Part shown: positions 4,774 through 58,099 of the stretch, in pieces | Position numbering within the stretch: the first letter of the stretch is position 1 | Layout of the letters: the number at the start of each line of letters is the position of its first letter | Virus record (IMG/VR): IMGVR_UViG_3300035179_000003 | Coordinates: 1 to 64,000 of that record | Source of the DNA: a virus | Length of the DNA stretch: 64,000 bases | Reading direction: 5' to 3' (one strand) | The notes under the pieces: generated by a model | Seen by the model: the letters and a program-made list of their open reading frames with translations, nothing else | What the model was told of the DNA's origin: nothing | The model's database searches: none | Position numbers and translations under genes: made by a program

Positions 4774-6777
4774 ATGGCAATTACATATGACCATGTCTAT
4801 GTAGATGTAGAAACTACCGGATTGGATCCAAGGGTTGATGAGGTTATTGAGGTTACCGCAATTGAATACAATCTCTCTGGAGAAGTCGGTAAATTAATTA
4901 CTTATATGTGCCGACCGATGTCCGGGCATGTTCCTAAAAAGGTTACCGATATTAATGGTATTACTTATGATATGGTTAAGGAAAAGCCATATTATTTAAA
5001 AGATAGCATCAGGGATGAGGTGGCGAAATTTATTGCACGAAGAACGTTGGTTGGACATAATATCAACTCGTTCGATATTAAATTTTTAAAAATTAAACCG
5101 TTAAAAACAATCGACACCTTAACGATTTCAAAAGAATTATTCCCCCGATCACGTCATAGTTTGGGTTTGATGTGCGAAAAACTTAATATTAAATTTGATA
5201 AAAAAGAAGCGCATAGGGCCGAATATGATGTTAGAAAAGGAGTTGAATTACATTTGAAACTAAATAAAATCTTAATCGATAAAAGTAAAAAAGAAGAAAA
5301 TCTTCCAATTTTTTCTACGGAAAAAGAACAAATTGAAGAATCGATTAAAATTAAAAAAATCGGAGTTATACCGACCGAAGAAGATAAACAGTTTTTTTAT
5401 ACACAATCATATTCATATTCAAGAATCAAGACGTTTCATGAATGTCCGTTTAAATGGTATATGTTGTATATAAAAAAGGTGAAAGAGCCGGAACGCGATT
5501 ATCTTGTTGTCGGAAATGCTTGTCATAAAATAGCTGAAGAGGCCGGCAGATGGTGTTACAAAGAAACCATTGTCAATAAAATAATTTCTTATAAAGGACG
5601 AGATTTAACGTTTGATCCGCATATAATATTCGACGATCCATCTAAAATATCAGAATATTTTCCTGGTTGTAATGGATTATATGATCTTGTTCATAAATTA
5701 GATAGCTCGATTACCGATTATGAAAAAGTGTCGATGCCCGATCGGGAAACTTATGATAAAATTACCAATTCCATCATAGCCAGATTAAGTATTACCGATA
5801 TCAATATTATTGGCGAGATTAAGTATATAATGAATTGGTTTTATATTAAACGTAATTTTTCAATTTCAATGAATGGCGTATTAATAATGGAAAAAAAATT
5901 AGCGTTTGATAAAGACTGGAATATCATAAATGATTTTTTTGCCAATAATGTATTCTTTCGTGGTATTATCGACGTCATTAAATATGATCATAAAGTTGTA
6001 GTCATTATTGATTATAAAACTTCCAGGACTATGATAAAGGAAGAAGAATTGGAAAATGATATGCAATTAAAAATGTATGTCATGATGGTTTATCATTTTC
6101 TTCCTCGCAATAGTTATACAAAAATTATAATTAAAATTGATTATATTCGTTTCTGTAAAGAAATTGTTTATGAAATCGGTGACGTTGAAAAATATGTTAA
6201 TGAGGCGAAACAATGGGTTAAAGATTCAATTAAACTCATTGAAACCCATATTATCAATAAAGATGGAACTGCATTCCAGCCAAAACGAAATGAGCATTGT
6301 GGAACATGTTTTCTTGGCGAAGATGGTATTTGTCCGTTATTCAATAAAAAGTTCATTAACGATATCGGCGATCCGTTTAATTTTATGATTAGATCGGCAG
6401 AGGACTGTGTAGCGGCTTATAAAAAAGCAGAAGTATTGGGCGCTGAATATGCCAATCTAATAAAAAAGTGTAAAGAATTTGTTAAAACAAGCGATCTTCC
6501 GATTATCATTGATGAAAATGCGCGTCTTGGATTTTATACAAAATCAGGAATTGATATATCCGCCGAAAAATTTGTTTTACTTATGTTAGGAAAAAATTTT
6601 AAATTGAGCGATTTTATAAAAGCATTCGGCGTGACCAAAACAAGTCTGGAAAAAATCCAGAAAATATTAAAAATTACTTTGAGCGATGCCGAGATAGAAT
6701 CTATTGGTGAAAAAACTAATAGAATAGAATTTAAAGCATTGACTCAGGAAGAAATTAACAAATATATAAATATATGA
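4774..6777 (+). CDS. DnaQ-type 3'-5' exonuclease fused to Cas4/RecB-type PD-(D/E)XK nuclease, 667 aa
   Basis: Residues 5-165 are a DEDDh exonuclease: D11 and E13 in VDVETTGL, an HNINSFD block (second Asp) near 95, and HRAEYD (His and last Asp) near 147. Residues about 205-540 are a Cas4/AddB-like nuclease: SYSRIKTFHECPF with C224, GNACHKIAEE, the acidic GIIDVIK block, then D413-Y-K415 as the active-site D-x-K. C509, C512 and C520 (HCGTCFLGEDGIC), together with C224, form the expected four-Cys 4Fe-4S ligand set. The C-terminal 110 residues have no known domain. The likely role is DNA-end resection or processing. It overlaps the next gene by ATGA. Confidence 0.85.
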   Translation: MAITYDHVYVDVETTGLDPRVDEVIEVTAIEYNLSGEVGKLITYMCRPMSGHVPKKVTDINGITYDMVKEKPYYLKDSIRDEVAKFIARRTLVGHNINSFDIKFLKIKPLKTIDTLTISKELFPRSRHSLGLMCEKLNIKFDKKEAHRAEYDVRKGVELHLKLNKILIDKSKKEENLPIFSTEKEQIEESIKIKKIGVIPTEEDKQFFYTQSYSYSRIKTFHECPFKWYMLYIKKVKEPERDYLVVGNACHKIAEEAGRWCYKETIVNKIISYKGRDLTFDPHIIFDDPSKISEYFPGCNGLYDLVHKLDSSITDYEKVSMPDRETYDKITNSIIARLSITDINIIGEIKYIMNWFYIKRNFSISMNGVLIMEKKLAFDKDWNIINDFFANNVFFRGIIDVIKYDHKVVVIIDYKTSRTMIKEEELENDMQLKMYVMMVYHFLPRNSYTKIIIKIDYIRFCKEIVYEIGDVEKYVNEAKQWVKDSIKLIETHIINKDGTAFQPKRNEHCGTCFLGEDGICPLFNKKFINDIGDPFNFMIRSAEDCVAAYKKAEVLGAEYANLIKKCKEFVKTSDLPIIIDENARLGFYTKSGIDISAEKFVLLMLGKNFKLSDFIKAFGVTKTSLEKIQKILKITLSDAEIESIGEKTNRIEFKALTQEEINKYINI

Positions 6778-6947
6778 GAACGATAAATATTTTTATTTTA
6801 TTATTCATAATTTTTTTTTTCACAATATCTGCCCCGTTATATGCCGTCTTAAGTATTTTTAAACTTCCTGAAGCATTTTTAAATTCTTTATATATCGGCA
6901 TTGGATGTGGTTTATTTATGGCAATTTATTTTTCAAGGAAATTATGA
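6774..6947 (+). CDS. Small two-helix membrane protein, 57 aa
   Basis: ATG at 6774 overlaps the TGA of the upstream nuclease (ATGA), and the frame ends in TGA at 6945-6947, which again overlaps the next ATG. The product has two hydrophobic segments: residues 4-28 (rich in Ile and Phe) and about 39-53 (YIGIGCGLFMAIYF). No homologue is recognised. The perfect overlap on both sides supports it as a real, translationally coupled gene. Confidence 0.65.
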   Translation: MRTINIFILLFIIFFFTISAPLYAVLSIFKLPEAFLNSLYIGIGCGLFMAIYFSRKL

Positions 6948-7414
6948 AGTATAAAGAATACGCCAAAACATATCATGAAATTGTAGATACTACCCGAGTC
7001 TTAAACATAAAAAAAAGAAATCTTGAAGAGTTGATAAATGAATTAAAAGAAGATGGAAAATACGGACTGGAATTTACTAGTCATGGATTTTCCCAAATCG
7101 CGGAAAAACTTGAAGATCTTGCGGGGGATAACCAAATGATTTATAATGATGTTATAAGGCCAGATTCTCCGCAAGATGCATTGATAATTCCGTCAAATCT
7201 TAAATCATTTGTTATTAGTTTATTATCAATGGCTCTTGAAGAGGGTAATGTCGTAGAAAAGGATTCACGAACAAAAGGTAAAGAATTTCACTATATAACT
7301 GTTATTAAAAAATGGTTAATAAACAAAAAGGTGATTGAATTTACCTGTATTGTAGAGAATAACTGTATTAAAACGGGGTATTTTAATTATGTTGATTTTA
7401 CCGGGGAAAAATAA
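6944..7414 (+). CDS. Hypothetical protein, 156 aa
   Basis: I chose the ATG at 6944 (MKYKEYAKTYHEIV) over an upstream in-frame start because it forms an ATGA junction with the membrane-protein gene before it. The N-terminal half is helical and charged (KKRNLEELINELKED). The C-terminal half looks like mixed beta structure. There is no recognisable catalytic motif. Its 3' end overlaps the helicase gene by 26 bp, so it is probably co-translated with the helicase and may act in the same process. Confidence 0.6.
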   Translation: MKYKEYAKTYHEIVDTTRVLNIKKRNLEELINELKEDGKYGLEFTSHGFSQIAEKLEDLAGDNQMIYNDVIRPDSPQDALIIPSNLKSFVISLLSMALEEGNVVEKDSRTKGKEFHYITVIKKWLINKKVIEFTCIVENNCIKTGYFNYVDFTGEK

Positions 7415-9155
7415 GGATGAATTAATTGTTGCGTGTAACGATCGTGATAAACTCGCCATAATTCAAGCTGTTACCGATGGAAGAAAAGTACGCGGAAACA
7501 ATCAAATCATTATTCATAAAAAAGCTGCAGTTAATCTTATACGGATGTTTAACGATATTCAATATCAAGATACTCAATTGATAGTTAAACATGCGTGTGA
7601 ATTATATACCGTAAGAATTGATAATATGAAAATGATAAAAAAATCCGACGGAACGAAATTTAATTATGATTATAAAGGAATTTATCCTGAAGTAATGAGA
7701 CATCAGAAAATAATGTACAATGCGATTATGTATACTGATTGCTGTGCGCTTCTCGCTGATCCCGGAACGTGTAAAACAGGTCCGTACATTTGGGCGATCG
7801 ATCGGCGTATTAAAGATGGGAAAATAAAAAGATGTCTTATTATTACGCTTTCTTCTTTAAAAGAAAATGTATTACGGGAAATTTCCATTCAAGCACCTCA
7901 TTTAAAGGCGGTTGCTATTTATGGTAAAGCAATAGCCGATAAAATAATTAATAAAAAATATAAAATTAAAAAATATAATCAGGATTATGACGTTTATATA
8001 GCGAACTATGAAAGTATGTTTGGCCTTGTCGAGATTTTTGATAATGATTTTTTCGATATGGTTATCTGTGATGAGGCTCATAGAATAGGATCTCCGCAGG
8101 CACGACAGACAAAATCAATTATTGATAAATTTGAAAATGTCAAATATAAATACATCATATCGGGAACGTTAAATGCCAATAATTTAATGTCATTTTTTAT
8201 GCCATTCAGATTTTTAGGCGCGGATACGATACCAGTGTCTAATTATAATGCTTATCGCGCCCAGCATATGTTTACCGTTGATCCTGACGGAGGATATGTG
8301 TGGAAGCCGAGAAGCGAAAATGATATTCAATATACTTCAAAAATTATCGGACTCATTTCGCTTTCTTTTAAAAAAGAAGAATGCATCGATCTTCCCCCTT
8401 TGATTCGGGAATATATGTATTGTACCATGTGTGGAGAACAACGAAAAGTGTATGAAGACTTAAAGAATGAATTTCTGGCGATTATTGATGATATGTGTAA
8501 AAAGTGTGATCGTTTTAATAATTGCAATATGCAATGCCAGGGAGAATTAACGGCAAAAAATGCCCTGGTATTAACCAGAAAATTACAACAAGTCGCTTCC
8601 GGATATTATATCAATACCCGATTTTTGATTAATGAAGATGGCAGCGAAATTGATATGAGGAATATTATTTATTTTGAATATAATGCTAAATTGCAATTAC
8701 TTCTTGAAGTTATGAGAACCATTCCGGATGGGAGAAAAACGATTATATGGAGTTATTCCATCCCCGCTTTGGAAATTATTAAAAAAAACGTAGAAATTGA
8801 GTTTGGAGACGAATCATGCCTTACCTGTTATGGGAACCAAGACGCTTTTAAGCAAATTAATATATTTAGGGAAAATGAAAAAATTAACTGGTTGATAGGA
8901 AATCCTGCCAAAATGGGTTCCGGTCACAATATTCAGTTTTCAAATTTTCAAATATTTTTTGATAATTCGTTTTCATATATCATGAAAGACCAGGCGGAAA
9001 GCAGGCAATATCGCCAGGGACAAAAAGAAAAAGTGACTGTAATTGAATTAATAACCAGGGATACTATAGACGAAAGGGTGGTTAGGGTTATCGATGATAA
9101 AAAGGATTTGTCTTTAACATTATCGCAGTGGGCCCAGGTATTTAGAAGGGAATAA
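7389..9155 (+). CDS. SNF2-family DEAD/DEAH helicase-like ATPase, 588 aa
   Basis: This is a superfamily 2 ATPase of the SNF2 type. Walker A is at 124-130 and reads DPGTCKT. Walker B is DEAH at 228-231, motif III is ISGT near 257, and the C-terminal lobe has motif VI (ESRQYRQGQ) near 550. Between the lobes (about 360-400) there is a Cys-rich insert with several C-x2-C pairs (CTMCGE, CKKCDRF), possibly zinc-binding. The usual Gly before the Walker A Lys is replaced by Cys128, which is odd. Phages often pair SNF2 helicases with VRR-NUC nucleases, and one lies 1.3 kb downstream. A role in replication or recombination is inferred. Confidence 0.85.
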   Translation: MLILPGKNKDELIVACNDRDKLAIIQAVTDGRKVRGNNQIIIHKKAAVNLIRMFNDIQYQDTQLIVKHACELYTVRIDNMKMIKKSDGTKFNYDYKGIYPEVMRHQKIMYNAIMYTDCCALLADPGTCKTGPYIWAIDRRIKDGKIKRCLIITLSSLKENVLREISIQAPHLKAVAIYGKAIADKIINKKYKIKKYNQDYDVYIANYESMFGLVEIFDNDFFDMVICDEAHRIGSPQARQTKSIIDKFENVKYKYIISGTLNANNLMSFFMPFRFLGADTIPVSNYNAYRAQHMFTVDPDGGYVWKPRSENDIQYTSKIIGLISLSFKKEECIDLPPLIREYMYCTMCGEQRKVYEDLKNEFLAIIDDMCKKCDRFNNCNMQCQGELTAKNALVLTRKLQQVASGYYINTRFLINEDGSEIDMRNIIYFEYNAKLQLLLEVMRTIPDGRKTIIWSYSIPALEIIKKNVEIEFGDESCLTCYGNQDAFKQINIFRENEKINWLIGNPAKMGSGHNIQFSNFQIFFDNSFSYIMKDQAESRQYRQGQKEKVTVIELITRDTIDERVVRVIDDKKDLSLTLSQWAQVFRRE

Positions 9156-9605: not shown

Positions 9606-9794
9606 ATGGCATTAAAAAGGGTTTGTGATTTTTGTAATAAACAAATTATTAATATAGAAAAAACCATTTTTATATATAAAAAAAAGAAATTCAGAGTTGC
9701 CATTCTTAAAATTAATATTCAAAATGGTTTACGTTGGAGAGAAGCTGATATATGTGAAAAGTGTTTTAATAAACATGTAAAAGGAAGATTATGA
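9606..9794 (+). CDS. Small zinc-ribbon-like protein, 62 aa
   Basis: Two C-x2-C pairs, CDFC at about 7-10 and CEKC at about 51-54, frame a short basic beta region. This is the usual layout of a small zinc ribbon. It overlaps the next gene by 4 bp (ATGA). The function is unknown. Confidence 0.55.
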   Translation: MALKRVCDFCNKQIINIEKTIFIYKKKKFRVAILKINIQNGLRWREADICEKCFNKHVKGRL

Positions 9795-10239: not shown

Positions 10240-10554
10240 ATGAGGATCACAAAAGATCAATTTATAAAAATGATAGAAAATTTTTCTTCAGACGTCGAGA
10301 TGGGCCAGTTTTTTCATAAAAGCAGACAATGGTCATGGAGAAAAAGAAAAAAATTTAAAATATTTTTTGGTATTGAGAAAAAAAAGAGAAACAAATCAAT
10401 TATAGAATTATACGATAATAATATTCGTATGAAAGAAATAGGAAAGCAGTTTTTCTTGTCAAAATCTCAAGTTTATAGAATAGTAAAGAAGGTCAAAGAT
10501 GCTAGAAAAAGACTTGCAGGCGAAAATCTTGAAATTCCTGGAATCAAGGAATGA
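10240..10554 (+). CDS. Small basic helix-turn-helix protein, 104 aa
   Basis: Residues about 50-90 (IIELYDNNIRMKEIGKQF then LSKSQVYRIVKKV) read as a helix-turn-helix of the homeodomain-like/resolvase type. The N-terminal half is strongly basic (RQWSWRKRKKFK). The 3' end overlaps the VRR-NUC gene by 56 bp in another frame. DNA binding is inferred; a regulator or a nuclease partner are both possible. Confidence 0.5.
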   Translation: MRITKDQFIKMIENFSSDVEMGQFFHKSRQWSWRKRKKFKIFFGIEKKKRNKSIIELYDNNIRMKEIGKQFFLSKSQVYRIVKKVKDARKRLAGENLEIPGIKE

Positions 10555-10786
10555 AGTATTTTCGTTTAAAATTAAACAAGCCAATAGAATTGGAATTCCT
10601 GATATTTTTTTTACTACCGTAAAAACCGGTCCATGGTTTGTGGAAATTAAACTGGAAAACGAGAAACCATTGATCCATCAATATGCAATAATAGATAAAT
10701 TAAATAAATGTGGAATGCGGGCAACATGGATATCCGGATGGGATGGGTGGATTGCTTTTGTTAAAAAAATCGGTTTATTGGAATAA
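10499..10786 (+). CDS. VRR-NUC domain nuclease, 95 aa
   Basis: This is a minimal PD-(D/E)XK nuclease of the VRR-NUC family, which cuts branched or structured DNA. Active-site residues seen are D35 in GIPDIFF, E49-x-K51 in WFVEIK and Q61 in the following helix (HQYAIID). The length is typical for stand-alone phage VRR-NUC proteins. It begins inside the preceding helix-turn-helix gene and lies just upstream of the ubiquitin-like cassette. It likely works with the SNF2 helicase. Confidence 0.85.
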   Translation: MLEKDLQAKILKFLESRNEVFSFKIKQANRIGIPDIFFTTVKTGPWFVEIKLENEKPLIHQYAIIDKLNKCGMRATWISGWDGWIAFVKKIGLLE

Positions 10787-10807: not shown

Positions 10808-12412
10808 ATGAATGATGATTTTGCGCCTTATATCATTATAGAACAATGGATGACAGATGCTTTTCCGGATTTGGAGTATATCCATTATCCAATAGCTAAT
10901 AATATGGTTGTTATAATTAATGATAATGGGTGGGAAAAAATTGTTGATAAATCTGATATAGAAAAATGTGTTCTATTTGATTCTAATATTGAAGGAGTAA
11001 AAGTTGGAGTTACTTCATTGTGGGCTAATACTACATTGTTGGAATCTATTGTAACAGAAAATGTTAGATTATCACCAACGTATTCTGATATTTTTACTTG
11101 TATTATATCAAATAATATAAGTATTAAACAAAGAATAGAGATCTTACAATCAGAAGACAAGCCAAAAGAAGAGTTTATTTTACCAATTGAAAAAAACCCT
11201 TTATTTCTTAGTCCTTATTTAACTTTTGGAGAAGACGAGGTATTTATTGATACTTGTTGTAATGTCGAAGATCTTGAAATTCCATTATTACAATTTTCAA
11301 GAAAGTTAAAGAGAAAGATTATTGTGTTATATACATATAATTATAAAATAAATGATTTTGATGTATTTAATTCTGCATTCAAAATTTTTATAATTAGTGA
11401 ACACAACAGAGATTTTGTACCAGTACAAATAAATGGCGGTGCAATTTCATGTCTTGGATTTTTAACCAATTCTATTTATATTCCAAAACAAATGGATAAA
11501 AATACTTCGCCATACATAAAATATGATGTAATATTAAAGGATTCATTTACTAATGTAATCTTTAGTATCGGTAATAATGATGAAATGTATATCGTTATTC
11601 CGGGAGCTTCTGCTTTAGTTACTTTTATAAAAGAAATATGTAAAAGGTATAAATCTTCTGAAAATTTTGAAGAATTGGATAAAATGTATTATGAAAAATA
11701 TTTAAAAGAGAATAAAAAAAACTATATCAACATGGCAAAACAATCATCCATTCAAATAAAAAATGAATTGGTGGTAAAAGCGCAGTCGCTTCAAAATGAA
11801 TATGAGATATTGTTAAACAGTGTTTTGGAAAAAGCGAAAATGTTTAATGTAGTTCAAACTCAAATTAAGTATTTCGATCAACAAAGGTTTGATGAAGAAC
11901 AGGAAAAAAAATTTTCAGAAAATTATGATATGACTGAAGCATTAGACCGTGTTCATTCGATAATAATTAATCCAAACGGTATTGTTACTGTGAACACGAA
12001 AGAAATTTATGTAAAAGACGAACGCACCGGTAAATGGCATGAAATAGGAAAATTTTCAATTGTCATAGGTATGATTTCACAAAATTATGATATTCGTACA
12101 ACTGTGAGAATTAGAAATATTAAATATGGAGATTTGATTGCTGGTTATCAGGCGCCGCATGTCTTTAGTAATTGTTTAATGTGTCATGGCAATATAGAAG
12201 CAAGTATTGCCGATGCGTATAAAAATAAAAATCTATATGAATTGGTTTTATTAATCATACAATTTTTACAACATGCCAATACCGGGGATAGGGCGGGTGA
12301 GAATATCGACAAATGGCCTGAAGTGCCAGAAGATGTTGTGAAAGGGTTTCATAAAGTAGAAATTAAAAAAATAGATATTCCAATTTTTATCAAAAAGGAG
12401 GAAAAGTCTTGA
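10808..12412 (+). CDS. E2-like ubiquitin-conjugating-type protein 1, 534 aa
   Basis: The C-terminal third carries GYQAPHVFSNCLMCHGN, with H451 and candidate catalytic C459. This resembles the P-H-[VI]-x(4-6)-C-x-G signature of bacterial E2-like/RWD-fold proteins found beside E1 and JAMM genes. A helix and FLQHANTGDRAG follow. The same two blocks recur in the next gene. The N-terminal 300 residues are unassigned; about 295-370 is a coiled coil (IKNELVVKAQSLQNEYEILL). The ATG at 10808 has a strong ribosome-binding site (ataggagg). The gene overlaps the next by 4 bp. The E2 assignment is inferred from motif and context (E1, JAMM and Ubl genes follow), not from a search. Confidence 0.55.
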   Translation: MNDDFAPYIIIEQWMTDAFPDLEYIHYPIANNMVVIINDNGWEKIVDKSDIEKCVLFDSNIEGVKVGVTSLWANTTLLESIVTENVRLSPTYSDIFTCIISNNISIKQRIEILQSEDKPKEEFILPIEKNPLFLSPYLTFGEDEVFIDTCCNVEDLEIPLLQFSRKLKRKIIVLYTYNYKINDFDVFNSAFKIFIISEHNRDFVPVQINGGAISCLGFLTNSIYIPKQMDKNTSPYIKYDVILKDSFTNVIFSIGNNDEMYIVIPGASALVTFIKEICKRYKSSENFEELDKMYYEKYLKENKKNYINMAKQSSIQIKNELVVKAQSLQNEYEILLNSVLEKAKMFNVVQTQIKYFDQQRFDEEQEKKFSENYDMTEALDRVHSIIINPNGIVTVNTKEIYVKDERTGKWHEIGKFSIVIGMISQNYDIRTTVRIRNIKYGDLIAGYQAPHVFSNCLMCHGNIEASIADAYKNKNLYELVLLIIQFLQHANTGDRAGENIDKWPEVPEDVVKGFHKVEIKKIDIPIFIKKEEKS

Positions 12413-13383
12413 AAATAATAATAAGACCTAGAGTTTTTGAATGGTATCCGAAACTTTTATTTTATGGTTTTGTTCCGGATGAATTTTTTACATCCGGTGG
12501 TCGTATATCAAGATCGATAGATGACATTGTTGTTTTTCAACATGAATCTGAAGAACAATTAAGAAGAATTTTAAATAATGATTCGATTTTTAATGAGCTA
12601 ATTGTAACTACAATTGATGACGGTTTTGTAGTTAATTTGCCACCAGCTAATCTTGTAGAAACGACAAGTCCCGTAACAGACGCTGATATCGTACCGGGAT
12701 TTGATGAAACGGAAGATGAAGATAATAGAATTATTGAAGTTAACCCTGATTATAGACTTCCTAAAAAAGAGGAAGAAAGCAATTATGCTATAAAAATAGC
12801 ACAATGTTTAAATAATTCCACTACATCTGAAGCAAGAGATTTAACGTCATTAATGGATCGATTTCATACATTAACAAATGAATTAATTAAAATTAAAAGA
12901 TTAATTGATTCAAAAGGTAAAGTGCTTGATTGTGATCCTGATGTTAAAAAGATCATAGAATCGATAATATATTTAAAAAAACATCCGAAAATTGATGATG
13001 TTTTTCTTTCCCCAGAGTTCAATATTAATATCGTCACAAAAGTTATAAAAGTAGAAGTTGAACATGTTATACGAATTTTGGGAAAGATGCTTATTATCCT
13101 TCCGTTGAAATTGTTCGTAGGGAGTAACCCCAATTTAAGTGGTATAAGAATTATTAATTTAACTCATATCATTTCTTATAATAGCACTCTGTATCAGGCT
13201 CCGCATGTTTATGAAAATGAGGGGTCTTGTTTTGGCGGAGCAACTTGTGATTTAATTATAAATGCAATTGCAGCCCGCGACGTAACTTTAACATTTTCGG
13301 CAATTTTACAGTTCTTAGAACTGCCGAATATTGAAGATGAAGCAGGCGAATGTGCGTTACTTTTGCCGGAGGCAAATAAATGA
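12409..13383 (+). CDS. E2-like protein 2 (paralogue), 324 aa
   Basis: The C-terminal 90 residues match gene 10808-12412 in order: LYQAPHVYENEGSCFGG (H266, candidate catalytic C274), a helix, then FLELPNIEDEAG against FLQHANTGDRAG. The spacing between His and Cys is identical (eight residues). The N-terminal 140 residues are acidic and unassigned. The gene overlaps both neighbours by ATGA, so its translation is coupled to theirs. A pair of E2-like proteins could act as a heterodimer or have different targets. If the Cys is not catalytic, one copy could be a structural partner. Confidence 0.55.
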   Translation: MKIIIRPRVFEWYPKLLFYGFVPDEFFTSGGRISRSIDDIVVFQHESEEQLRRILNNDSIFNELIVTTIDDGFVVNLPPANLVETTSPVTDADIVPGFDETEDEDNRIIEVNPDYRLPKKEEESNYAIKIAQCLNNSTTSEARDLTSLMDRFHTLTNELIKIKRLIDSKGKVLDCDPDVKKIIESIIYLKKHPKIDDVFLSPEFNINIVTKVIKVEVEHVIRILGKMLIILPLKLFVGSNPNLSGIRIINLTHIISYNSTLYQAPHVYENEGSCFGGATCDLIINAIAARDVTLTFSAILQFLELPNIEDEAGECALLLPEANK

Positions 13384-14228
13384 AATTACGAGTAATGAAT
13401 ACTAATATAGTATTCGCCCCTAAAATTATTATTGACCAAAAAGCAAAAGAGTGGATGAAAGCCATTGTCGATCTTCATGAAACTGAAGTTGGATTTTATG
13501 CATTGTCTACGATGAGGGATGACAATACCTTTTTTATTAGCGACGTGTATTACCCGAAACACAATATCGCTAATTTGGGACATTGCGAAATAGCAGATAG
13601 TGGTCAATCCGATTTCATGAGATTGCTTATAAGTCAAGGTAGAGAAGACGATGTTGGTAAGATTAAAGTATGGGGCCATTCTCATGTTGATATGGGAATA
13701 AGCCCAAGTAAAGATGACCATGATCAAGCCATGGAATCGGCACGAGACAATAAGGATTATTTTATCAGATTAATCACAAATAAGAAACATCAGATAGGCG
13801 TTTCTTTTTATGACTATAAAAAAAATCTGATTTATGATGAAGTAGGTTGGGAAATAGAAGTATCAAATGCCGAATCAATTTATGAAACCAAGGTAAATCA
13901 GATAATAAATATTATTACAGCAAATCAAAATTATACACAGGCGATAAAAGAAATTCGTCTGGTATTGGATAATAATGTTTTTTATCAAGAGGCATGTGAA
14001 TATATAAAATTAAAAAAAGAAGAAAACATGCCACAGCCTACATTTAATGGACAAACAAATTTGTTTGCGCATTCATATGATTTCGGTTTTAAAAATGATC
14101 AAAGATTTTTTTCAAAAAAAAACAAAACAAGTTTTACGCCATTTTTCGAAAGAGATCCCGTCGATCAGATGGGATTAGAAAACCTATTGGATGAAGATAG
14201 TTATTACGGAAAGGGGTTTTACGAATAA
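13380..14228 (+). CDS. JAMM/JAB-type metallopeptidase (deubiquitinase-like), 282 aa
   Basis: The complete JAMM zinc motif is present: E36 in ETEVGFY, then H100-x-H102-x7-S110-x2-D113 (GHSHVDMGISPSKDD). This fold cleaves isopeptide bonds or C-terminal extensions of ubiquitin-like proteins. Residues about 20-160 form the catalytic domain. The C-terminal 120 residues are unassigned and probably partly disordered. The gene overlaps E2-like 2 by 4 bp and the E1-like gene by 1 bp. Placed with E1, E2 and Ubl genes, its likely jobs are maturing the tandem Ubl and removing it from targets. Confidence 0.88.
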   Translation: MKLRVMNTNIVFAPKIIIDQKAKEWMKAIVDLHETEVGFYALSTMRDDNTFFISDVYYPKHNIANLGHCEIADSGQSDFMRLLISQGREDDVGKIKVWGHSHVDMGISPSKDDHDQAMESARDNKDYFIRLITNKKHQIGVSFYDYKKNLIYDEVGWEIEVSNAESIYETKVNQIINIITANQNYTQAIKEIRLVLDNNVFYQEACEYIKLKKEENMPQPTFNGQTNLFAHSYDFGFKNDQRFFSKKNKTSFTPFFERDPVDQMGLENLLDEDSYYGKGFYE

Positions 14229-14956
14229 TGGATTACAATCGTCAAAACAAATTATTGAATGTTGCAAAAATAGGTAAAAAAAGTATCACTTTAATAGGAG
14301 CCGGGGCTGTTGGATCACACGTTGCCTTGTTATTGACCCAAATGGGATGGGGCGATCAAAGCAGTGACCAAGGAGTTATTAACGTATTTGACTTTGATAA
14401 AGTCGAAGAGCATAATCTGGCAAATCAGATATATGATCCGTCTCATGTCGGAAAATTCAAGGTTGATGCTCTTAATGAGGCAATTAAGAAAAAGTGTGGT
14501 TTCGGAATTAATACTTTTAATGAAAAAGTAATTAATCAAACCGCGAACGTTCAATCTACCTATGTTTTTCTTATGGTGGATACCATGGCAGGCAGAAAAG
14601 AAATTTTTGATAACTGCCTGCGTTATAGTTTCGATACCCAGTTGGTAATCGAGACTCGAATGGGGTTAGATGAAGGTCGAATTTATGCATTCAATCCCGC
14701 AAATAGGGAGCATTTACGTGAGTGGGAATTTTCCTTGTATTCAGATCAAGAGGCCGAATTATCATTATGCGGGACCAGTATGGCTATAGCGATGACCGCT
14801 TGGTATATTGCAAGTCTTGCAGTTTCCAGAGTAATTCAGCATTTTAATGATAAAAAAGATTTATGGAATGAATTTCACTTTTGTTTATGTCCCGAATCAT
14901 ATTATTATAGAAGGTTTAGTGAAAAACCTTTTATGTTACAACAATTTAATTCATAA
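14228..14956 (+). CDS. ThiF/E1-like adenylyltransferase, 242 aa
   Basis: This is a Rossmann-fold E1-like enzyme that would adenylate the C-terminus of a ubiquitin-like protein. The nucleotide-binding loop is GAGAVGS (24-30). FDFDKVEEHNLANQIYD (55-70) holds the Asp, Asn and adjacent residues of the family. K76 in VGKFKVD and D118 in VDTMAGRKE follow the ThiF pattern. C181 in LSLCGTS is a candidate for the thioester-forming Cys. It is about the length of ThiF/MoeB without a C-terminal extension. The TAATG junction couples it to the JAMM gene, and the Ubl gene starts 12 bp downstream. Confidence 0.88.
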   Translation: MDYNRQNKLLNVAKIGKKSITLIGAGAVGSHVALLLTQMGWGDQSSDQGVINVFDFDKVEEHNLANQIYDPSHVGKFKVDALNEAIKKKCGFGINTFNEKVINQTANVQSTYVFLMVDTMAGRKEIFDNCLRYSFDTQLVIETRMGLDEGRIYAFNPANREHLREWEFSLYSDQEAELSLCGTSMAIAMTAWYIASLAVSRVIQHFNDKKDLWNEFHFCLCPESYYYRRFSEKPFMLQQFNS

Positions 14957-14968
14957 GGAGTAATAAAG

Positions 14969-15424
14969 ATGATTCTGGTAAAATTGATGAAGTTGGGAAT
15001 TCCGGTTGTTGAATACAGCATGGAAGATGGAGCAACCGTTTCCGATTTATTTGAAACGGCTGATGAGGAGTTCAAGGGAACAGTAACCATTCTTGACCGT
15101 CCCGTAGATGAAGACACGGTTCTTCGTGATGGTGACCGGGTTTTCGTATCGGCCAAAGTAAAAGGCAGCACCCCTCTTGAGGTAAAACTCTTGAGGGTCG
15201 GCGGCGCTACAACCAAAACCTATGTAGTGGAATCTGGGACAAGTCTCGGGGATTTCATTAATGGGTTGGAAGACAAGGATGATTACATAGACGCAAGCGG
15301 TAATCACAAGTGGACCTACACCGATGTTGTGGGCGTCGTATTGAGCCTTGGATATACATTCTCTGGCACTCCGGAACAGGTAATACGCATTCTCCTGTCC
15401 AAAAAGACCAAGGGAAGCAGGTAA
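14969..15424 (+). CDS. Tandem beta-grasp ubiquitin-like protein, 151 aa
   Basis: Two Ubl-like units are visible. Unit 1 (about 1-70) follows the ThiS/MoaD pattern: DRPVDEDTVLRDGDRVFVSA, ending in KVKGS. Unit 2 (about 71-151) begins LEVKLLRVGG and ends LLSKKTKGSR. Both units end with S-[AK]-K-x-K-G-S, so cleavage after Gly would give two modifiers with a C-terminal ...KG. The protein does not end in Gly-Gly. The start has a good ribosome-binding site (aaggag). The gene is about 50% G+C, clearly above its neighbours, and a terminator follows. It is the last clear gene of the operon. Confidence 0.75.
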   Translation: MILVKLMKLGIPVVEYSMEDGATVSDLFETADEEFKGTVTILDRPVDEDTVLRDGDRVFVSAKVKGSTPLEVKLLRVGGATTKTYVVESGTSLGDFINGLEDKDDYIDASGNHKWTYTDVVGVVLSLGYTFSGTPEQVIRILLSKKTKGSR

Positions 15425-17861: not shown

Positions 17862-19202
17862 TTATGTTAAATAAATTGAACCTGTATGAAATATAGTGGT
17901 AATTTTTTTTATTCCAAAATTTCCATCACTACAACAAACAGTTTTTCCATATGTTGAACACCCTTTAACAATATGTATTTTTCTTTTTATAAATACAAAA
18001 TCACCAGGCTGTATTGAATATCTTTGTTTACGGATAGATGGCTTAAAACCCTTTCTATTCAACTGCAAAACCCTATTATTTCTATGTTTCTGCTTAAATA
18101 TAATTGGAGCCACTTTTCTCTGTTCGTTTCCACCAGCTATTACAAAAGCATCGTTATAATGGCTTTTTTCTAACCTCAAAATATTTCTTTTAACAAAAGT
18201 CTCATTTCCATAAATTAACTTACAATTTGATAAAATATTTCTGAATTTATTCCTTATTATACTCATAAATGTTGCATCTTTGTAAACCTTATTCTTTTTT
18301 AACACATCATACAACTTGTTCTTATGCAATTTCTTATGACATCTCTCATGCAACAAAGCCAAATTCTTCTCCCGGTCTATTCCACCGTTACTCCTCGATA
18401 TAATGTGGTGAATATGAAAACTGTTACCTTTTGAAAACTCTTTACCGCATAACTGACATCTTCCCTGCTCCCGGAACATTAAAAAACTTCTCATGTTTTG
18501 ATATTCAAACAACGATCCTTGTTGATATTGTATTCCTGCTATATCTGGATTCTCTATTTTCTGAATATCAAAATTACCTACTTCAATTACAACATTCTTA
18601 ATTGGTAATAGTTTTTTTAGCTTGTTAATCAAGGTTATGTGGGTGTTGAATCTTCTCTGTGTTGAAGGTGGTAAATAACCAATAGCTGTTTTTCTATTGT
18701 TAAATCTTGGCTTTCTATACCACAATCTACTCCTTCTACCCCTTCGATACATTCTCTTTTCTATAAGTCTCTCAGATGTCCTTTGATCCAAAAGAAGCGT
18801 TCCTGCTACTATTTCTTTTTTATCAGTTATTGCTGAAAAACCTATATTCTTAAAACCGCTGTCTATTCCCAAAGAACAATCTTGAACCTGATTCTCACAC
18901 TCAAAATTCAATTTAATAACAAATGGATTCTGCTTTACAACATGCGCTTTTCCTCCTTCTAAAAGATGCCTTGCCTTTGTACTTGTGCATGGCATTAAAG
19001 GTTTTCCATTAATTGACAATACAAACACAATGCTTTTAAAGCCGGGTGCTTGTTCCCGTTGATCCACTTCGAGATTGTTTAAAGTCCGTACTTTATCCTG
19101 TACACTGACTCTTTCAAGTCTGTTTAATACAGGATTTACAGAGCAAGGAACTAGTGGAGTATTCCTTGGTGTGTTCTTAAACTTTACTTTAAACTGCTGC
19201 AT
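17862..19202 (-). CDS. iscB: IscB RNA-guided nuclease (RRXRR, RuvC, HNH), up to 446 aa
   Basis: Domains in order: RRXRR/PLMP domain near 59-100 (VLSINGKPLMPCTSTKARHL); RuvC-I with D114 (GIDSGFKNIG); Arg-rich bridge helix 149-171; RuvC-II with E207 (VVIEVGNFD); HNH 249-293 with CQLC, HIHHI, N280 and H289; RuvC-III with H348 and D351 (SHYNDAF). All catalytic residues are intact. Known IscBs start at the PLMP domain. Here a GTG at codon 59 (about 19028) would be that start, and the preceding 58 codons overlap the predicted omega-RNA. Which start is used is undecided. The enzyme would cut DNA matching the omega-RNA guide. Confidence 0.9.
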   Translation of the reverse strand: MQQFKVKFKNTPRNTPLVPCSVNPVLNRLERVSVQDKVRTLNNLEVDQREQAPGFKSIVFVLSINGKPLMPCTSTKARHLLEGGKAHVVKQNPFVIKLNFECENQVQDCSLGIDSGFKNIGFSAITDKKEIVAGTLLLDQRTSERLIEKRMYRRGRRSRLWYRKPRFNNRKTAIGYLPPSTQRRFNTHITLINKLKKLLPIKNVVIEVGNFDIQKIENPDIAGIQYQQGSLFEYQNMRSFLMFREQGRCQLCGKEFSKGNSFHIHHIISRSNGGIDREKNLALLHERCHKKLHKNKLYDVLKKNKVYKDATFMSIIRNKFRNILSNCKLIYGNETFVKRNILRLEKSHYNDAFVIAGGNEQRKVAPIIFKQKHRNNRVLQLNRKGFKPSIRKQRYSIQPGDFVFIKRKIHIVKGCSTYGKTVCCSDGNFGIKKITTIFHTGSIYLT

Positions 19203-19286
19203 AGATAAACAACCTAAGCCCTCTAATCAACTCTTACGTTGAATCTCACGATTCAAGCTCCGGCCCTTGTGGCCGGAGTAGTTGAC
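19029..19286 (-). ncRNA. Predicted IscB omega-RNA
   Basis: IscB guide RNAs lie directly 5' of the PLMP domain. This stretch of about 258 nt has the expected order: a left-end hairpin next to gtcaactactcc, then gcttgaatcgtgag, a paired aacacaccaagg/ccttgctct region, and ctcgaagtggatcaacggg followed by aacaagcacccggc. These blocks resemble IscB omega-RNAs as I recall them. The guide should be the roughly 16 nt just outside the left end (gaacagaactttcagc, minus strand, 19302-19287), which belongs to the 3' end of the neighbouring phage gene. Confidence 0.65.
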
Positions 19287-42576: not shown

Positions 42577-43719
42577 ATGATACAAAAGAAATCCTACAAA
42601 TTCCGCATTTATCCCAATAATGCCCAAAAAGTCTTACTATCTAAAACTTTCGGATGTGTTCGATATATCTGGAATCAATTTGTAGAATCATTCAATAAAA
42701 AAGAAAATCCTAAATCTACTACTATTTTTAGAAAAGAAATAGAATGGTTAAAAGAAGTATCTTCTGCGGCTATTCAACAAAAAGAAATTGATTTTAAAGA
42801 ATTTAAAAATCAGTTTTTCTCTAAAAAGAGAAAGAAAAAAATAGGAAAGCCTTCTTTTAAAAAGAAATTTGAAAAACAATCTTATCGATTACCTAATCAG
42901 AAATTTATCTTAAAAAATAATAAGATCAGACTTGAAAAGATAGGATGGATAAAAATCATTCTTGATCGAGAAATTCCTTCTTGTAAATTTTTATCAGTTA
43001 CTATTTCAAAAGATAAAGTTGGAGATTATTATGCCTCAATCTTAGTTGAAGAGAATGTCCAAGAACTACCTAAAACAAATAAAATAGTAGGAATAGATTT
43101 AGGAATACAAGATCTTATTACTACTTCAGATGGATTACAGATAAAAATGTTTGATGAAAGTGAGAACCAAGCTAAAATTAAGCATTTATCCGGACATCTA
43201 TCAAGGAAGAAAATAGGATCTTTGAGATTTAATAAGACAAAGATTAAGATAGCTAAAATCTATCGTAAAATAGCAAGAAAGAGAGAATGGTTACATCATA
43301 ATATTTCTTCTTATCTTGTAAAAAATTATGATAAGATTATAATAGAAGATCTTAATATTTCCGGAATGATGAAAAACCATAATTTAGCAGGATCTATTCA
43401 AAAACAGGGATGGTTTACTTTAGGAAAACAGATTGATTATAAGTCAAGATGGTATGGTAGAAAATTAACTAAGATAAATCGATTTTATCCTTCTTCTAAA
43501 TTGTGTTCATTATGTGGTAGAATAAAAAAAGATCTAAAATTGTCAGAAAGATTTTATATTTGTAAATGTGGAAACAATATTAATAGAGACTTAAATGCAT
43601 CTCTAAATATTCTATCTTCAGGAGTTACTGAAGATTATCGATCATTGATGGAAAGTAAGACTTTTAATAATCAGGAGACATTAAAAGCAATTCCAGATGA
43701 AATGATTAACTTTTTATAA
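42577..43719 (+). CDS. tnpB: TnpB RNA-guided nuclease, 380 aa
   Basis: This is an IS200/IS605-type TnpB with all parts: the N-terminal helix-turn-helix (YKFRIYPNNAQKVLLSKTFG), RuvC-I D174 in GIDLGIQD, RuvC-II E257 in IIIEDLNISGM, a zinc finger C310-x2-C313/C329-x-C331 and RuvC-III D338 in NRDLNAS. Length is normal. The guide RNA of TnpB should overlap the 3' end of this gene and run past 43719. It is on the strand opposite to the flanking structural genes and inserted between a gp25-like gene and a tail gene without breaking either. No TnpA is nearby. Confidence 0.92.
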   Translation: MIQKKSYKFRIYPNNAQKVLLSKTFGCVRYIWNQFVESFNKKENPKSTTIFRKEIEWLKEVSSAAIQQKEIDFKEFKNQFFSKKRKKKIGKPSFKKKFEKQSYRLPNQKFILKNNKIRLEKIGWIKIILDREIPSCKFLSVTISKDKVGDYYASILVEENVQELPKTNKIVGIDLGIQDLITTSDGLQIKMFDESENQAKIKHLSGHLSRKKIGSLRFNKTKIKIAKIYRKIARKREWLHHNISSYLVKNYDKIIIEDLNISGMMKNHNLAGSIQKQGWFTLGKQIDYKSRWYGRKLTKINRFYPSSKLCSLCGRIKKDLKLSERFYICKCGNNINRDLNASLNILSSGVTEDYRSLMESKTFNNQETLKAIPDEMINFL

Positions 43720-55720: not shown

Positions 55721-55754
55721 AAAAAGGGGATAAATCCTATCCCCCCTTTTTTTT
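55721..55754. terminator. Bidirectional terminator between convergent operons
   Basis: The stem aaaaagggga-taaatcc-tatcccccttttt has a run of A on one side and T on the other, so it can act in both directions. It lies between the plus-strand gene ending at 55687 and the minus-strand gene ending at 55753. Confidence 0.85.
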
Positions 55755-57111
55755 AATTAATAAACATTTTTGTTAATAATCCATAAAATGTAGAAACCTT
55801 CTCAAGGTTTTTTTCAACATCCATTGTATAAAATGCGGGTGCGCGCAATGCGCCTGAAGAATATTGTTGTGGAGATTTAACCCTGGCAACCATTCCAACA
55901 TAATTTTCCGGATGAGCCAACATGTCTTTTCGTTTTTCCTGAGTGAAACCTGTACCGACATTGCCAACAATTTTACCTTTTGGCGTCAAACTATACTGAA
56001 AACCACCGGCTTCATTCTTTTTTACTTGTGGATAAATATTCCGTATATAAACGTCATGGGTATCCCGGAATTTTTGCTTTCTTGGCGAACCGCCCGGTTT
56101 ATTTAAATCCCACTCGACGACGCCTTCAACGGTATCCGGATGTTTTTGTTTCTGTATTTTATTAAGCAGATCCTGTTTGTCCTTTTGTGTTATGACAGTT
56201 TCAGCAACACGCATCGCAGGAATCTTTAATTCTACCTGTTTCATCATTTTCAACTTATCGGCATAAGGCGCGCTCGAAACATCCTTGCCTTTAAATTTTA
56301 CTATATCGAAAATATATGGTTTGAGCGGAGCTGTTTGTTTTTGTTTTTCCAAACTCTTATCAACATTTGAATTTAATATTCCACTGATTTGTTCTGCAGG
56401 AAGAGGGCCTTTGGACGTTGTTCCATATAAATCACCCCTCAATACCGTTCCGCTCAATGATTCAGGAACTTTTAAATCGCGTAAATGTGGAACCTGATTA
56501 GTATGTTCAATGGGTTTGCCGGTTTTTTTACTGGTACGATATGAGTAAATATCATTTTCTTTATTAGCATTTAATTGAAATATTGAATGACTGCCATCGA
56601 CCTTTGGTTGTAAAACTTTATTTTCATCGGAAAAATCCAATGATTTTTTAACGGTTTGATATTTTGGCTTTGAAGTAACGGGATTTTTAATTACTGACGT
56701 CTTAATCATCAGCCAATGTTTATCATCAGCGCCTTTTGGACGTATCATTGTAAAATAACCTTCAGGCAACTTCATTTTAATTTTATCATTCGTCGCTGAA
56801 ATAACTTTTATTTTTTCATCATATACTTTTTTAACTGTCCCGGCGCCATATCCCTTTTTAATCTTTCCCTCAAAATCCATATAGCTTGATAAATGTGTAG
56901 GCTGTCGTATAGCAAGAGTTTTCTGTTTTTCACCAGGCAATGATCTGGTTACCCAACTATGTGCAATTCCTTTATCTTTTAAACGTATATCATAATGTTC
57001 GGTTTTTGCTTTGTGTTTTTGAACAACAAGACGCGTGGTACCTTTTTGATTTATAGGATCAAATCTGGTACGGGAGGGGAGGCCTGGGGCATCATGTTTA
57101 TTTTCATCCAT
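55753..57111 (-). CDS. LigD-like 3'-phosphoesterase fused to ATP-dependent DNA ligase, 452 aa
   Basis: Residues 25-140 are a LigD-type 3'-phosphoesterase: LVVQKHKAKTEHYDIRL holds H33, H39 and D41, then GYGAGTV and HWLMIK. Residues about 165-440 are an ATP-dependent ligase: motif I is LQPKVDGSH with the adenylated K170, motif III is around YIFDIVKFKGKD, and motif IV is VEGVVEWD near 338. The polymerase domain of LigD is absent. It would clean 3' ends and seal breaks. It overlaps the sigma gene start/stop by 1 bp, so they are expressed together. Confidence 0.85.
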   Translation of the reverse strand: MDENKHDAPGLPSRTRFDPINQKGTTRLVVQKHKAKTEHYDIRLKDKGIAHSWVTRSLPGEKQKTLAIRQPTHLSSYMDFEGKIKKGYGAGTVKKVYDEKIKVISATNDKIKMKLPEGYFTMIRPKGADDKHWLMIKTSVIKNPVTSKPKYQTVKKSLDFSDENKVLQPKVDGSHSIFQLNANKENDIYSYRTSKKTGKPIEHTNQVPHLRDLKVPESLSGTVLRGDLYGTTSKGPLPAEQISGILNSNVDKSLEKQKQTAPLKPYIFDIVKFKGKDVSSAPYADKLKMMKQVELKIPAMRVAETVITQKDKQDLLNKIQKQKHPDTVEGVVEWDLNKPGGSPRKQKFRDTHDVYIRNIYPQVKKNEAGGFQYSLTPKGKIVGNVGTGFTQEKRKDMLAHPENYVGMVARVKSPQQYSSGALRAPAFYTMDVEKNLEKVSTFYGLLTKMFIN

Positions 57112-57800
57112 TATCTATAACTCGCAATTTTATTCGACATGGCGCGCTTTCGTCGCGTTATCCACATATCATTTACGTTCAATTTTTTAGCTATGTCCTT
57201 ATTACTCAATATCGGTTTGCCGGCATATCCGAATGTATGCTCGAAAATAACCTTGTCCTTATCTTCCAACTCCTGATATAAATAATCGGCAAGCGCCTTG
57301 TCCTTACTTTCGGCCTGCACCGCGTTTCCGTAAAAATCAAACGACGCCTTGGATGCAGTCGTTTCTCCGCTCAACTCGTTAATCATCCTCGCCGATTCTT
57401 TACGGTTCCACCCAAGCTCGTCTGATATCTGATCGATATTAGGTTCATACCCTAAACGATCGGTGAGATTTATCACTGCCGTGCGAAATGTAGCGCGTTT
57501 TAAATTACGCGCTTCTGGTATATGGCCGGAAATCAAACTCTCGGAAGCAACGCGCTGCACTTTTTTCAAATTATTATATATATGCGTTATTGGTTGGGTA
57601 CCCAGAGTCGGATCATAAGAATTAAACGCTTTAATCATCTGGGATTGAGCATTAGCCCTTAATGTAGAAGGGGAAACGCCGACCGTGCGATAATGGCCGA
57701 CAACACTTTCAATGACTGGTTTATATCGCATTGATAATTCAGAAAACAGTACGGGATCTTTAGTTTTCTGCCATTGCATAATCATGTCTACTTCATTCAT
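57111..57800 (-). CDS. Sigma-70-family-like factor, 229 aa
   Basis: The pattern is that of a small alternative sigma factor. A region 2-like part (FSELSMRYKPVIESVVGHYR) is followed by FNSYDPTLGTQPITHIYNNL. A region 3-like part has LGYEPNIDQISDELGWNRKE. A C-terminal helix-turn-helix reads SNKDIAKKLNVNDMWITRRK. I chose ATG 57800 (MNEVDMIMQ); an in-frame ATG at 57836 adds 12 residues encoded by a decayed IscB right end. No good ribosome-binding site precedes 57800, perhaps because of that insertion. It could direct late transcription. Confidence 0.75.
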   Translation of the reverse strand: MNEVDMIMQWQKTKDPVLFSELSMRYKPVIESVVGHYRTVGVSPSTLRANAQSQMIKAFNSYDPTLGTQPITHIYNNLKKVQRVASESLISGHIPEARNLKRATFRTAVINLTDRLGYEPNIDQISDELGWNRKESARMINELSGETTASKASFDFYGNAVQAESKDKALADYLYQELEDKDKVIFEHTFGYAGKPILSNKDIAKKLNVNDMWITRRKRAMSNKIASYR

Positions 57801-57812
57801 TTTTTGGTATCT

Positions 57813-58099
57813 ACGCAAGGATACCCCGCCCCTCATGGGCAGGAATGAATTGCGCCCTTATGTTAAATAAATTGAACTTGTATTAAAAATTTTTTCTATC
57901 CTCTTAATTCCAAAATCAAACTTGTTTAATCCATCTGTACAAATAACACTTTTTCCATACGAATGACACCCATTTACTGTATACTTTTTTCTTTTAACAA
58001 ACACAAAATCACCGGGTTGTATTGAATATCTTTGTCTACGAATTGAAAGCTTAAAACCTCACGATTCAAGCCCCGACCCTCGTGGTCGGAGTAGTTGAC
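57813..58099 (-). mobile_element. Decayed IscB element with both ends, internal deletion
   Basis: Both termini match the IscB element family. The left end (hairpin ccgaccctcgtggtcgg, boundary at 58099) and the last 190 bp of iscB plus stop (57858-58055) match the copy at 17.9-19.3 kb. Most of the omega-RNA region and over 1 kb of iscB are deleted between them (junction near 58055). Beyond the iscB stop a right end with a gcaattcattcctgcccatgaggggcggggtatccttgcg-type hairpin, shown here by its stem gccc/gggc at 57824-57836, is present. The full-length copy lacks this right end. Confidence 0.8.
57858..58055 (-). pseudogene. iscB C-terminal remnant
   Basis: The fragment aligns by eye with the final 60-65 codons of the complete iscB gene. 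It keeps the stretches for Q-R-Y-S-I-Q-P-G-D-F-V-F and G-S-I-Y-L-T-like ends, and the stop at the same place. RuvC and HNH parts are missing. It has drifted from the intact copy at many positions, so the two are not recent duplicates. Confidence 0.75.

Follow-up and report, generated by a model that had tools for sequence, protein, structure and literature searches.

Bacterial operons that combine the enzymes of ubiquitin-like (Ubl) conjugation are described in several forms, and known sets are mostly studied as host weapons against phages. The PRTRC cassettes, operon type 6d of Iyer et al. 2006, comprise a Ubl, an alpha-helical protein, an E2-like protein (Prok-E2_D), a JAB protease and ThiF, together with ParB (PMC1779556). 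The Bil (bacterial ISG15-like) operons contain a tandem Ubl, E2, JAB and E1, while type II CBASS encodes Cap2, an E2-E1 fusion, and Cap3, a JAB protein. In phages, the lambdoid tail-assembly proteins TAPI and TAPK carry Ubl and JAB/NlpC domains (PMC1779556). Here we examine a compact gene set in a bacterial virus that most likely makes, attaches and removes a Ubl tag. Closely matching sets sit beside DNA-replication genes in scores of other phages, including relatives of the abundant gut crAss-like phages, which suggests that protein tagging is a common and largely overlooked phage tool.

The window analysed is the first 64,000 nucleotides of an 80-kb phage record (IMGVR_UViG_3300035179_000003), and the features of interest are as follows.

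4774..9155 (+ strand): DNA-processing genes upstream on the same strand, a DnaQ-like/RecB-like exonuclease (4774-6777) and a SNF2-type helicase (7389-9155); context
10499..10786 (+ strand): VRR-NUC nuclease just upstream in the same run of genes; context, not part of the core
10808..12412 (+ strand): E2-like protein 1 (534 aa), with a low-confidence N-terminal region, a long coiled coil (about residues 287-346) and a C-terminal E2-like domain
11885..12358 (+ strand): E2-like domain of protein 1 (residues 360-517), predicted helix, strands, PH-loop-C and helices
12155..12190 (+ strand): E2-like active-site motif PHVFSNCLMCHG, with H451 and candidate catalytic C459
12409..13383 (+ strand): E2-like protein 2 (324 aa, TTG start), paralog of protein 1, with motif QAPHVYENEGSCFGG and candidate catalytic C274
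13380..14228 (+ strand): JAMM/JAB metalloprotease (282 aa), predicted to process and deconjugate the Ubl
14228..14956 (+ strand): E1-like (ThiF) adenylyltransferase (242 aa), with candidate catalytic C181 (codon 14768-14770)
14969..15424 (+ strand): ubiquitin-like protein (151 aa), probably two beta-grasp repeats
14969..15169 (+ strand): Ubl repeat 1 (residues 1-67), ending KVKG followed by ST, modelled beta-grasp
15176..15421 (+ strand): Ubl repeat 2 (residues 70-151), ending KTKG followed by SR, likely but not established

The original prediction of five coupled plus-strand genes, encoding two E2-like proteins, a JAMM protease, an E1/ThiF-like enzyme and a beta-grasp Ubl, is confirmed as an observation, with every ORF and named motif in place. 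Shine-Dalgarno-like sequences (AGGAGG, GGAGG, AAGGAG) precede at least four of the starts. The E1, the JAB protease and the first Ubl domain are secure. The E1 matches Pfam ThiF above cut-off (E=2.3e-21), carries the GAGAVGS loop at residues 24-30, and has sequence relatives in the PDB that include UBA1, UBA6 and UBA5. Residues C181, D55, D57, N63, Q67, K78, D118 and R144 are conserved in 98 of 98 relatives, so that both the adenylation residues and a cysteine at the thioester position are present, although activity was not assayed. The JAB protein has the JAMM motif of E36 and H100-S101-H102-x7-S110-x2-D113, where E36 is conserved in 104 of 107 relatives and H100, S101, H102, S110 and D113 in 107 of 107. 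When scanned singly, both the JAB protein and the Ubl fall below Pfam cut-offs.

The Ubl is recovered by an HMM built without it (E=9e-13), and a PDB profile search gave a hit to SAMP2 (1.7e-4). Foldseek of the Ubl model returned ISG15, di-ubiquitin, SUMO, SAMP1 and MoaD, with ISG15 and linear di-ubiquitin as the top hits. The beta-grasp fold is supported for repeat 1, where the model has pLDDT of 89-97 for residues 1-60. The second repeat is plausible, as both repeats end in Lys-Gly-Ser within a K-x-K-G-S terminus, and a related phage contig, L054, has two such repeats with AKGN at both repeat ends. However, model pLDDT for repeat 2 is mostly 30-60, which leaves its fold undecided. The family has a conserved KG[NS] C-terminus, in which Lys-Gly is followed by one or more residues to be trimmed, making a glycine available for adenylation; this is a single Gly rather than GlyGly.

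The E2 assignment is less direct. The two E2-like proteins are paralogs (BLASTP, 25% identity over 218 aa, E=5e-8), and HMMs built without them recover protein 1 at E=3.8e-15 and protein 2 at E=8.2e-5. In an alignment of 51 sequences, His451 and Cys459 are invariant, Gly461 is present in 46 of 51, Asn491 in 47 of 51 and an acidic residue at 494 in 51 of 51, the same order as the HPN...C...NPxD motifs of yeast Ubc4. The candidate catalytic cysteine is preceded by an HPN-like motif, PH(451)...C(459)xG, with relatives carrying HPHVx..GxACLG, although a strict PROSITE-style E2 pattern matched no member. An hhalign comparison with Ubc4 is weak but registers these motifs correctly (P=0.004), and was outscored by 5 of 483 decoys, of which 4 turned out to be E2-like genes adjacent to JAB in other cassettes. 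The AF2 model of protein 1 shows a helix, strands, a PH/C loop and helices, with block-mean pLDDT mostly 82-94, falling to 64-75 in residues 421-450 and about 60 from residue 510.

On the other hand, no E2 family in Pfam matches any of the 51 E2-like proteins, and PHROGs gave nothing meaningful. A PDB profile search with the full-length alignment hit mainly coiled coils, while a search with the E2-core profile found no E2 and only unrelated proteins, the best a designed propeller. Foldseek of the whole-chain model against PDB and BFVD also found no E2; the best PDB hits, BRISC-complex and BRCC36-KIAA0157 chains (E=0.04), are probably driven by the low-confidence N-terminal half plus the coiled coil and were not trusted. 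The original prediction was to fall if structure models lacked an E2/RWD fold in the E2-like proteins and a beta-grasp fold in the 151-aa protein, and this was half answered: beta-grasp is supported for repeat 1, while the UBC/RWD fold has sequence, motif and secondary-structure support without a fold-search hit, so that the evidence does not settle the point either way.

Searches of viral contigs with the E1 or JAB protein singly found only an identical contig, and the E1 alignment was too divergent to scan with. A DNA pattern for the JAB motif instead brought in more than 100 viral contigs. Of 95 JAB loci, 93 have ThiF nearby, and of 54 contigs with enough flank, 47 carry E1, E2, JAB and Ubl. 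As the loci were found through the JAB motif, and the E2 and Ubl family models were seeded from those loci, this tally describes the family rather than providing an independent test. The interpretation in the original prediction is partly supported. A complete Ubl-conjugation gene set, carried by a phage in one run of genes with DNA-processing genes, is supported; these include the exonuclease (PHROG match), the helicase (PHROG match and SNF2-related phage homologs) and the VRR-NUC nuclease (Pfam VRR_NUC 4.5e-5; PHROG endonuclease 4.5e-11). The suggestion that two E2-like genes with a tandem Ubl form an unrecognised architecture is not supported for the core set, which is widespread in phages, or for the tandem Ubl, which occurs in L054 and in Bil/ISG15-like systems. 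It holds for the two cysteine-bearing E2 copies: among the loci examined, only the window and locus L100 have a pair of E2-like genes, and the second copy in L100 has lost the cysteine.

The targets first proposed, namely host proteins, host defence or the virion, are untested. Across the sampled loci, the most frequent neighbour families are polymerase, reverse transcriptase, helicases, primases and clamp loader, which points to the replication phase rather than virion assembly. While neighbour function is only an indirect clue to substrates, and many phage early genes of other functions sit near replication genes, the cassette lies in the DNA-replication/recombination gene block here and in many unrelated phages, and we think for this reason that its main targets are proteins, phage or host, acting in the replication phase. 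A role for the cassette in modifying the phage's own virion or assembly proteins, comparable to the lambdoid tail-assembly domains, is unlikely. A block of genes on the opposite strand, which includes the virion genes, does begin immediately downstream, but the cassette is on the strand of the DNA-metabolism genes, sampled neighbours in other phages are mainly replication genes and not virion genes, and tail-type Ubl/JAB sets are not described with E1 or E2 (PMC1779556).

It has also been considered that the cassette serves counter-defence or inter-phage warfare, with the Ubl attached to host defence proteins, or to virion parts of competing phages as in Bil systems, to inactivate them. The nearest experimentally studied bacterial sets, Bil and CBASS Cap2/Cap3, act in phage conflict (PMC10097602 for CBASS), and the cassette is far from universal, divergent, and enriched in viruses over cellular genomes, as expected of conflict genes. 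However, it sits among replication genes rather than in an accessory or anti-defence cluster, its company is kept across distant phages, and no defence profile other than E1 models matches well, making this reading doubtful though less so than the virion one. Alternatively, ThiF, Ubl and JAB could serve sulfur transfer, forming a thiocarboxylate for a cofactor or for tRNA thiolation, with the two large proteins not being E2 enzymes. ThiF and ThiS/MoaD-like Ubls are historically sulfur carriers, GenBank labels the phage E1 "thiamine biosynthesis protein", and the E2 fold lacks fold-search confirmation. We consider this improbable, as no thiamine, molybdopterin or rhodanese families were among the sampled neighbour families, the E2-like protein with invariant His and Cys accompanies E1 and JAB in nearly all loci, and the E1 keeps an invariant cysteine at the catalytic position.

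Taken together, the five genes most likely encode a working E1-E2-JAB-Ubl cascade. In this model, the JAB protease trims the Ubl precursor after the conserved Lys-Gly, removing a tail of "ST..." or "SR"; the E1 adenylates the exposed glycine and takes the Ubl as a thioester on C181; an E2-like protein, through C459 of protein 1 and possibly also C274 of protein 2, accepts the Ubl and places it on target lysines; and the JAB protease can remove it again. The sequences themselves show the parts, their catalytic residues, their linkage and their recurrence, whereas every chemical step, the thioester relay, the processing site and the substrates are inferred, and no biochemical data exist on adenylate, thioester or lysine-conjugate formation. 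We are fairly confident in this explanation as a whole and more so in a working conjugation cascade, while replication-phase targets are proposed only tentatively.

A broader reading, possible but somewhat less likely than not, is that phages of many lineages encode their own complete Ubl conjugation pathway, with a distinct E2 family absent from Pfam and PHROGs and Ubls ending in Lys-Gly, and use it to regulate or take over proteins during genome replication. This would be a previously undescribed and common layer of phage biology; no paper in the literature we searched, which did not extend to subscription papers and preprints, describes such complete phage cassettes. A complete set kept by phages themselves, repeatedly beside replication genes, would make protein tagging a viral strategy in bacteria, as it is for eukaryotic viruses, and would give a reservoir of divergent E2s and Ubls for the origin of ubiquitin systems. 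Isolated phages of laboratory-grown hosts (Bacteroides intestinalis crAss-like phages and Flavobacterium psychrophilum Fpv phages) carry related loci, so the question is directly testable. The GenBank label "thiamine biosynthesis protein" probably hides such systems.

The set is analogous to the PRTRC and Bil operons, but profile tests do not place it in either. PRTRC cassettes have the same four activities and the same core order E2-JAB-E1, with similar active-site strings (QAPHVYENEGSCFGG in the window and QAPFFNVWSQGKVCVGN in PRTRC_B), and a PRTRC Ubl also carries Lys-Gly at its Ubl end (AGAKG followed by R). By contrast, the E2-like proteins do not match Prok-E2_D, the E1 scores 43.4 bits against the NCBIfam PRTRC_ThiF cut-off of 144.75, there is no PRTRC_B or PRTRC_C match, and the E1 tree puts PRTRC on its own long branch. 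The phage-borne set also has a probable tandem Ubl and two E2-like genes. ParB and other accessory PRTRC proteins were absent among the nine proteins of and around the cassette that were scanned, which leaves their presence undecided as the whole genome was not scanned for them. The Bil operons share the four-part set and, probably, the ISG15-like tandem Ubl, but no BilA, BilB or BilC profile matches, BilD does so only through the generic E1 core (2.2e-4), and the phage set is not a host defence operon and has two E2-like genes.

Type II CBASS shares E1, E2 and JAB chemistry, yet in the phage cassette E1 and E2 are separate proteins, there is no CD-NTase among the cassette genes, the set has its own Ubl, and PADLOC E1-E2 models match only the E1 protein and not the E2-like ones. 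The lambdoid TAPI/TAPK proteins share the presence of Ubl and JAB domains in phages but belong to a virion-assembly context. Finally, the ThiF-bearing loci of crAss-like (Steigviridae), Flavobacterium Fpv and Xanthomonas PhiXhv phages, annotated with the "thiamine biosynthesis protein" label, have an E1 only 25-32% identical, and their E2-like and Ubl genes are divergent and were recognised by eye rather than by the family HMMs. Like the window, however, these loci have an E1 with E2-like and Ubl-like neighbours, and JAB in the crAss-like and Fpv phages, next to primase, uracil-DNA glycosylase, ligase or topoisomerase.

The window is the first 64 kb of an 80,022-bp virus record, and baseplate-wedge-like genes mark it as a tailed phage, probably with a contractile tail. 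The five ORFs named in the original prediction exist exactly as described, so that the observation held, while the interpretation placed on them is partly supported, as detailed below. The ORFs overlap or nearly touch one another, and most are preceded by clear Shine-Dalgarno sequences. Upstream on the same strand lie an exonuclease, an SNF2-type helicase and a VRR-NUC nuclease. Other features of the window outside this run of genes include two that are related to insertion, and a ligase:

17862-19286 (-): an IscB RNA-guided nuclease gene (446 aa; plasmid homologs are annotated iscB) with a HEARO/omega RNA (19058-19286, 113 bits), sitting between phage genes just downstream of the cassette
42577-43719 (+): a transposase-family gene (PHROG 506, 1.4e-103), the second insertion-related gene in the phage
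55753-57836 (-): a DNA ligase with a LigD-type 3′-phosphoesterase domain, next to a sigma-factor-like gene

The 242-aa protein is a ThiF/E1 enzyme (Pfam, 2.3e-21). In an alignment of 98 phage rows, the main nucleotide and adenylation residues and C181 are invariant or nearly so. The 282-aa protein is a JAMM protease, although a Pfam scan of the single sequence gave only a weak match; the motif residues are invariant in 107 rows, while E36 is present in 104 of these.

Taken alone, the 151-aa protein gave weak ThiS matches. However, small ORFs beside the same cassettes in other phages form a family that recovers the window protein at E = 9e-13 when the window is left out, and the profile of this family finds small archaeal modifier protein 2 in the PDB (1.7e-4). 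The absence of a beta-grasp fold in this protein had been put forward at the outset as an observation that would count against the prediction; the model of residues 1-60 is instead a confident beta-grasp, and a Foldseek search returned ISG15, linear di-ubiquitin, SUMO, SAMP1 and MoaD, at E-values of about 1e-3 to 4e-2 with probabilities near 1 for most of them. Most members of the family end in Lys-Gly plus Asn or Ser, with a short or no further tail. The window protein carries this terminus twice (KVKG-ST and KTKG-SR), and one of the viral contigs, L054, has a tandem protein with AKGN at both repeat ends. A tandem Ubl is therefore likely, but the second repeat is modelled with low confidence. 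A second family of cassette Ubls (contig positions L086:419-643, L069:7628-7852, L099:10827-11069 and relatives) ends in K-[AT]-x-N-A or similar with no C-terminal glycine, which would be odd for an E1 substrate unless another residue is activated. In addition, a 140-aa protein upstream of the E2-like gene of a Xanthomonas jumbo phage (L006:2808-3230) ends in AKASGG and is a possible Ubl with a GlyGly terminus.

The two large proteins are paralogs. To find relatives, we used a DNA pattern for the JAB motif, which fetched over 100 viral contigs, most of which have, upstream of the JAB gene, a protein with a string like PH[IVL]-x(n)-C-[LFM]-G. In 51 aligned members His451 and Cys459 never vary, while Gly461 is kept in 46, Asn491 in 47 and an acidic residue at position 494 in all. 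This order matches the HPN...C...NPxD landmarks of ubiquitin-conjugating enzymes, and a profile comparison with yeast Ubc4 puts these landmarks in register (P = 0.004). In a decoy test, five of 483 other phage ORFs scored higher, but four of those five lie beside the JAB gene of other cassettes and look like missed E2-like proteins. Whether the large proteins adopt an E2 fold was likewise among the points named beforehand as able to overturn the prediction. The modelled C-terminal domain, mostly at pLDDT 82-94, has the expected helix, strands, active loop and helices, whereas searches of Pfam, of PDB sequences and of the whole-chain model with Foldseek do not return E2s, and these results leave the fold undecided. 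We treat “E2-like” as probable, with good confidence, but not proven. The second E2-like protein of contig L100 (L100:2417-3775) keeps QAPHV but has lost the catalytic cysteine, like an inactive E2 variant (UEV). Some E2-like proteins (L006:3310-5988, and those of contigs L118 and L066) carry cysteine-rich, possibly zinc-binding terminal regions that could act as built-in E3-like domains, while the gene run of the window has a separate 62-aa CxxC...CxxC protein (9606-9794).

Of 95 JAB loci with at least 1.5 kb downstream, 93 have an E1 nearby, and of 54 loci with enough flank, 47 have E1, E2-like, JAB and Ubl. These tallies describe the family and are not independent proof, because the family models were seeded from the same loci. 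The same JAB pattern gave 42 matches in 84,980 cellular species genomes, against at least 119 in the viral set. Several isolated phages carry related sets, namely crAss-like Steigviridae, Flavobacterium Fpv and Xanthomonas PhiXhv. In the GenBank records of the crAss-like, Flavobacterium and Xanthomonas phages (L004-L007), the phage E1 genes are labelled “thiamine biosynthesis protein”, which is probably a misannotation.

We next scanned 146 neighbouring proteins from 66 contigs against PHROGs. The most frequent annotated families are polymerase, reverse transcriptase, helicases, primases and clamp loader, and terminase small subunit (three members) is the only clear packaging or virion family among the 25 listed. 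A reverse transcriptase (about 380 aa, YTRYADD motif) starts within 2.5 kb downstream of E1 in 39 of 77 testable cassettes (contigs L008, L107, L020, L042, L061, L074 and others), although none was found in the record of the window. The neighbourhood favours a role in the replication phase. The most economical mechanism is that JAB processes the Ubl after Lys-Gly, E1 activates it, the E2-like cysteine receives it and it is conjugated to lysines, from which JAB would remove it. While the genes, their conserved residues and their neighbours are read from sequence, all of this chemistry is inferred, and no substrates are known. Counter-defence or inter-phage conflict is the main rival to a replication-phase role, and virion modification is a lesser one.

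A PRTRC cassette fetched for comparison has the same E2-JAB-E1 order, an active-site string resembling that of the window (QAPFFNVWSQGKVCVGN against QAPHVYENEGSCFGG), and a Ubl whose Ubl part ends GAKG before a tail. Profile comparison of the phage E2 core with PRTRC_B sequences is weak (P 0.02-0.4), the window proteins fail PRTRC family thresholds, and PRTRC E1s form a separate long branch. Bil profiles do not match except through the E1 core. Bacterial operons and lambdoid tail Ubl/JAB genes were surveyed in 2006 (PMC1779556), but no description of complete phage cassettes was found in the literature searched, where absence is not proof of novelty. The phage cassette would work like the PRTRC and Bil systems and may share ancestry with type 6d operons, but profile tests do not place it in either.
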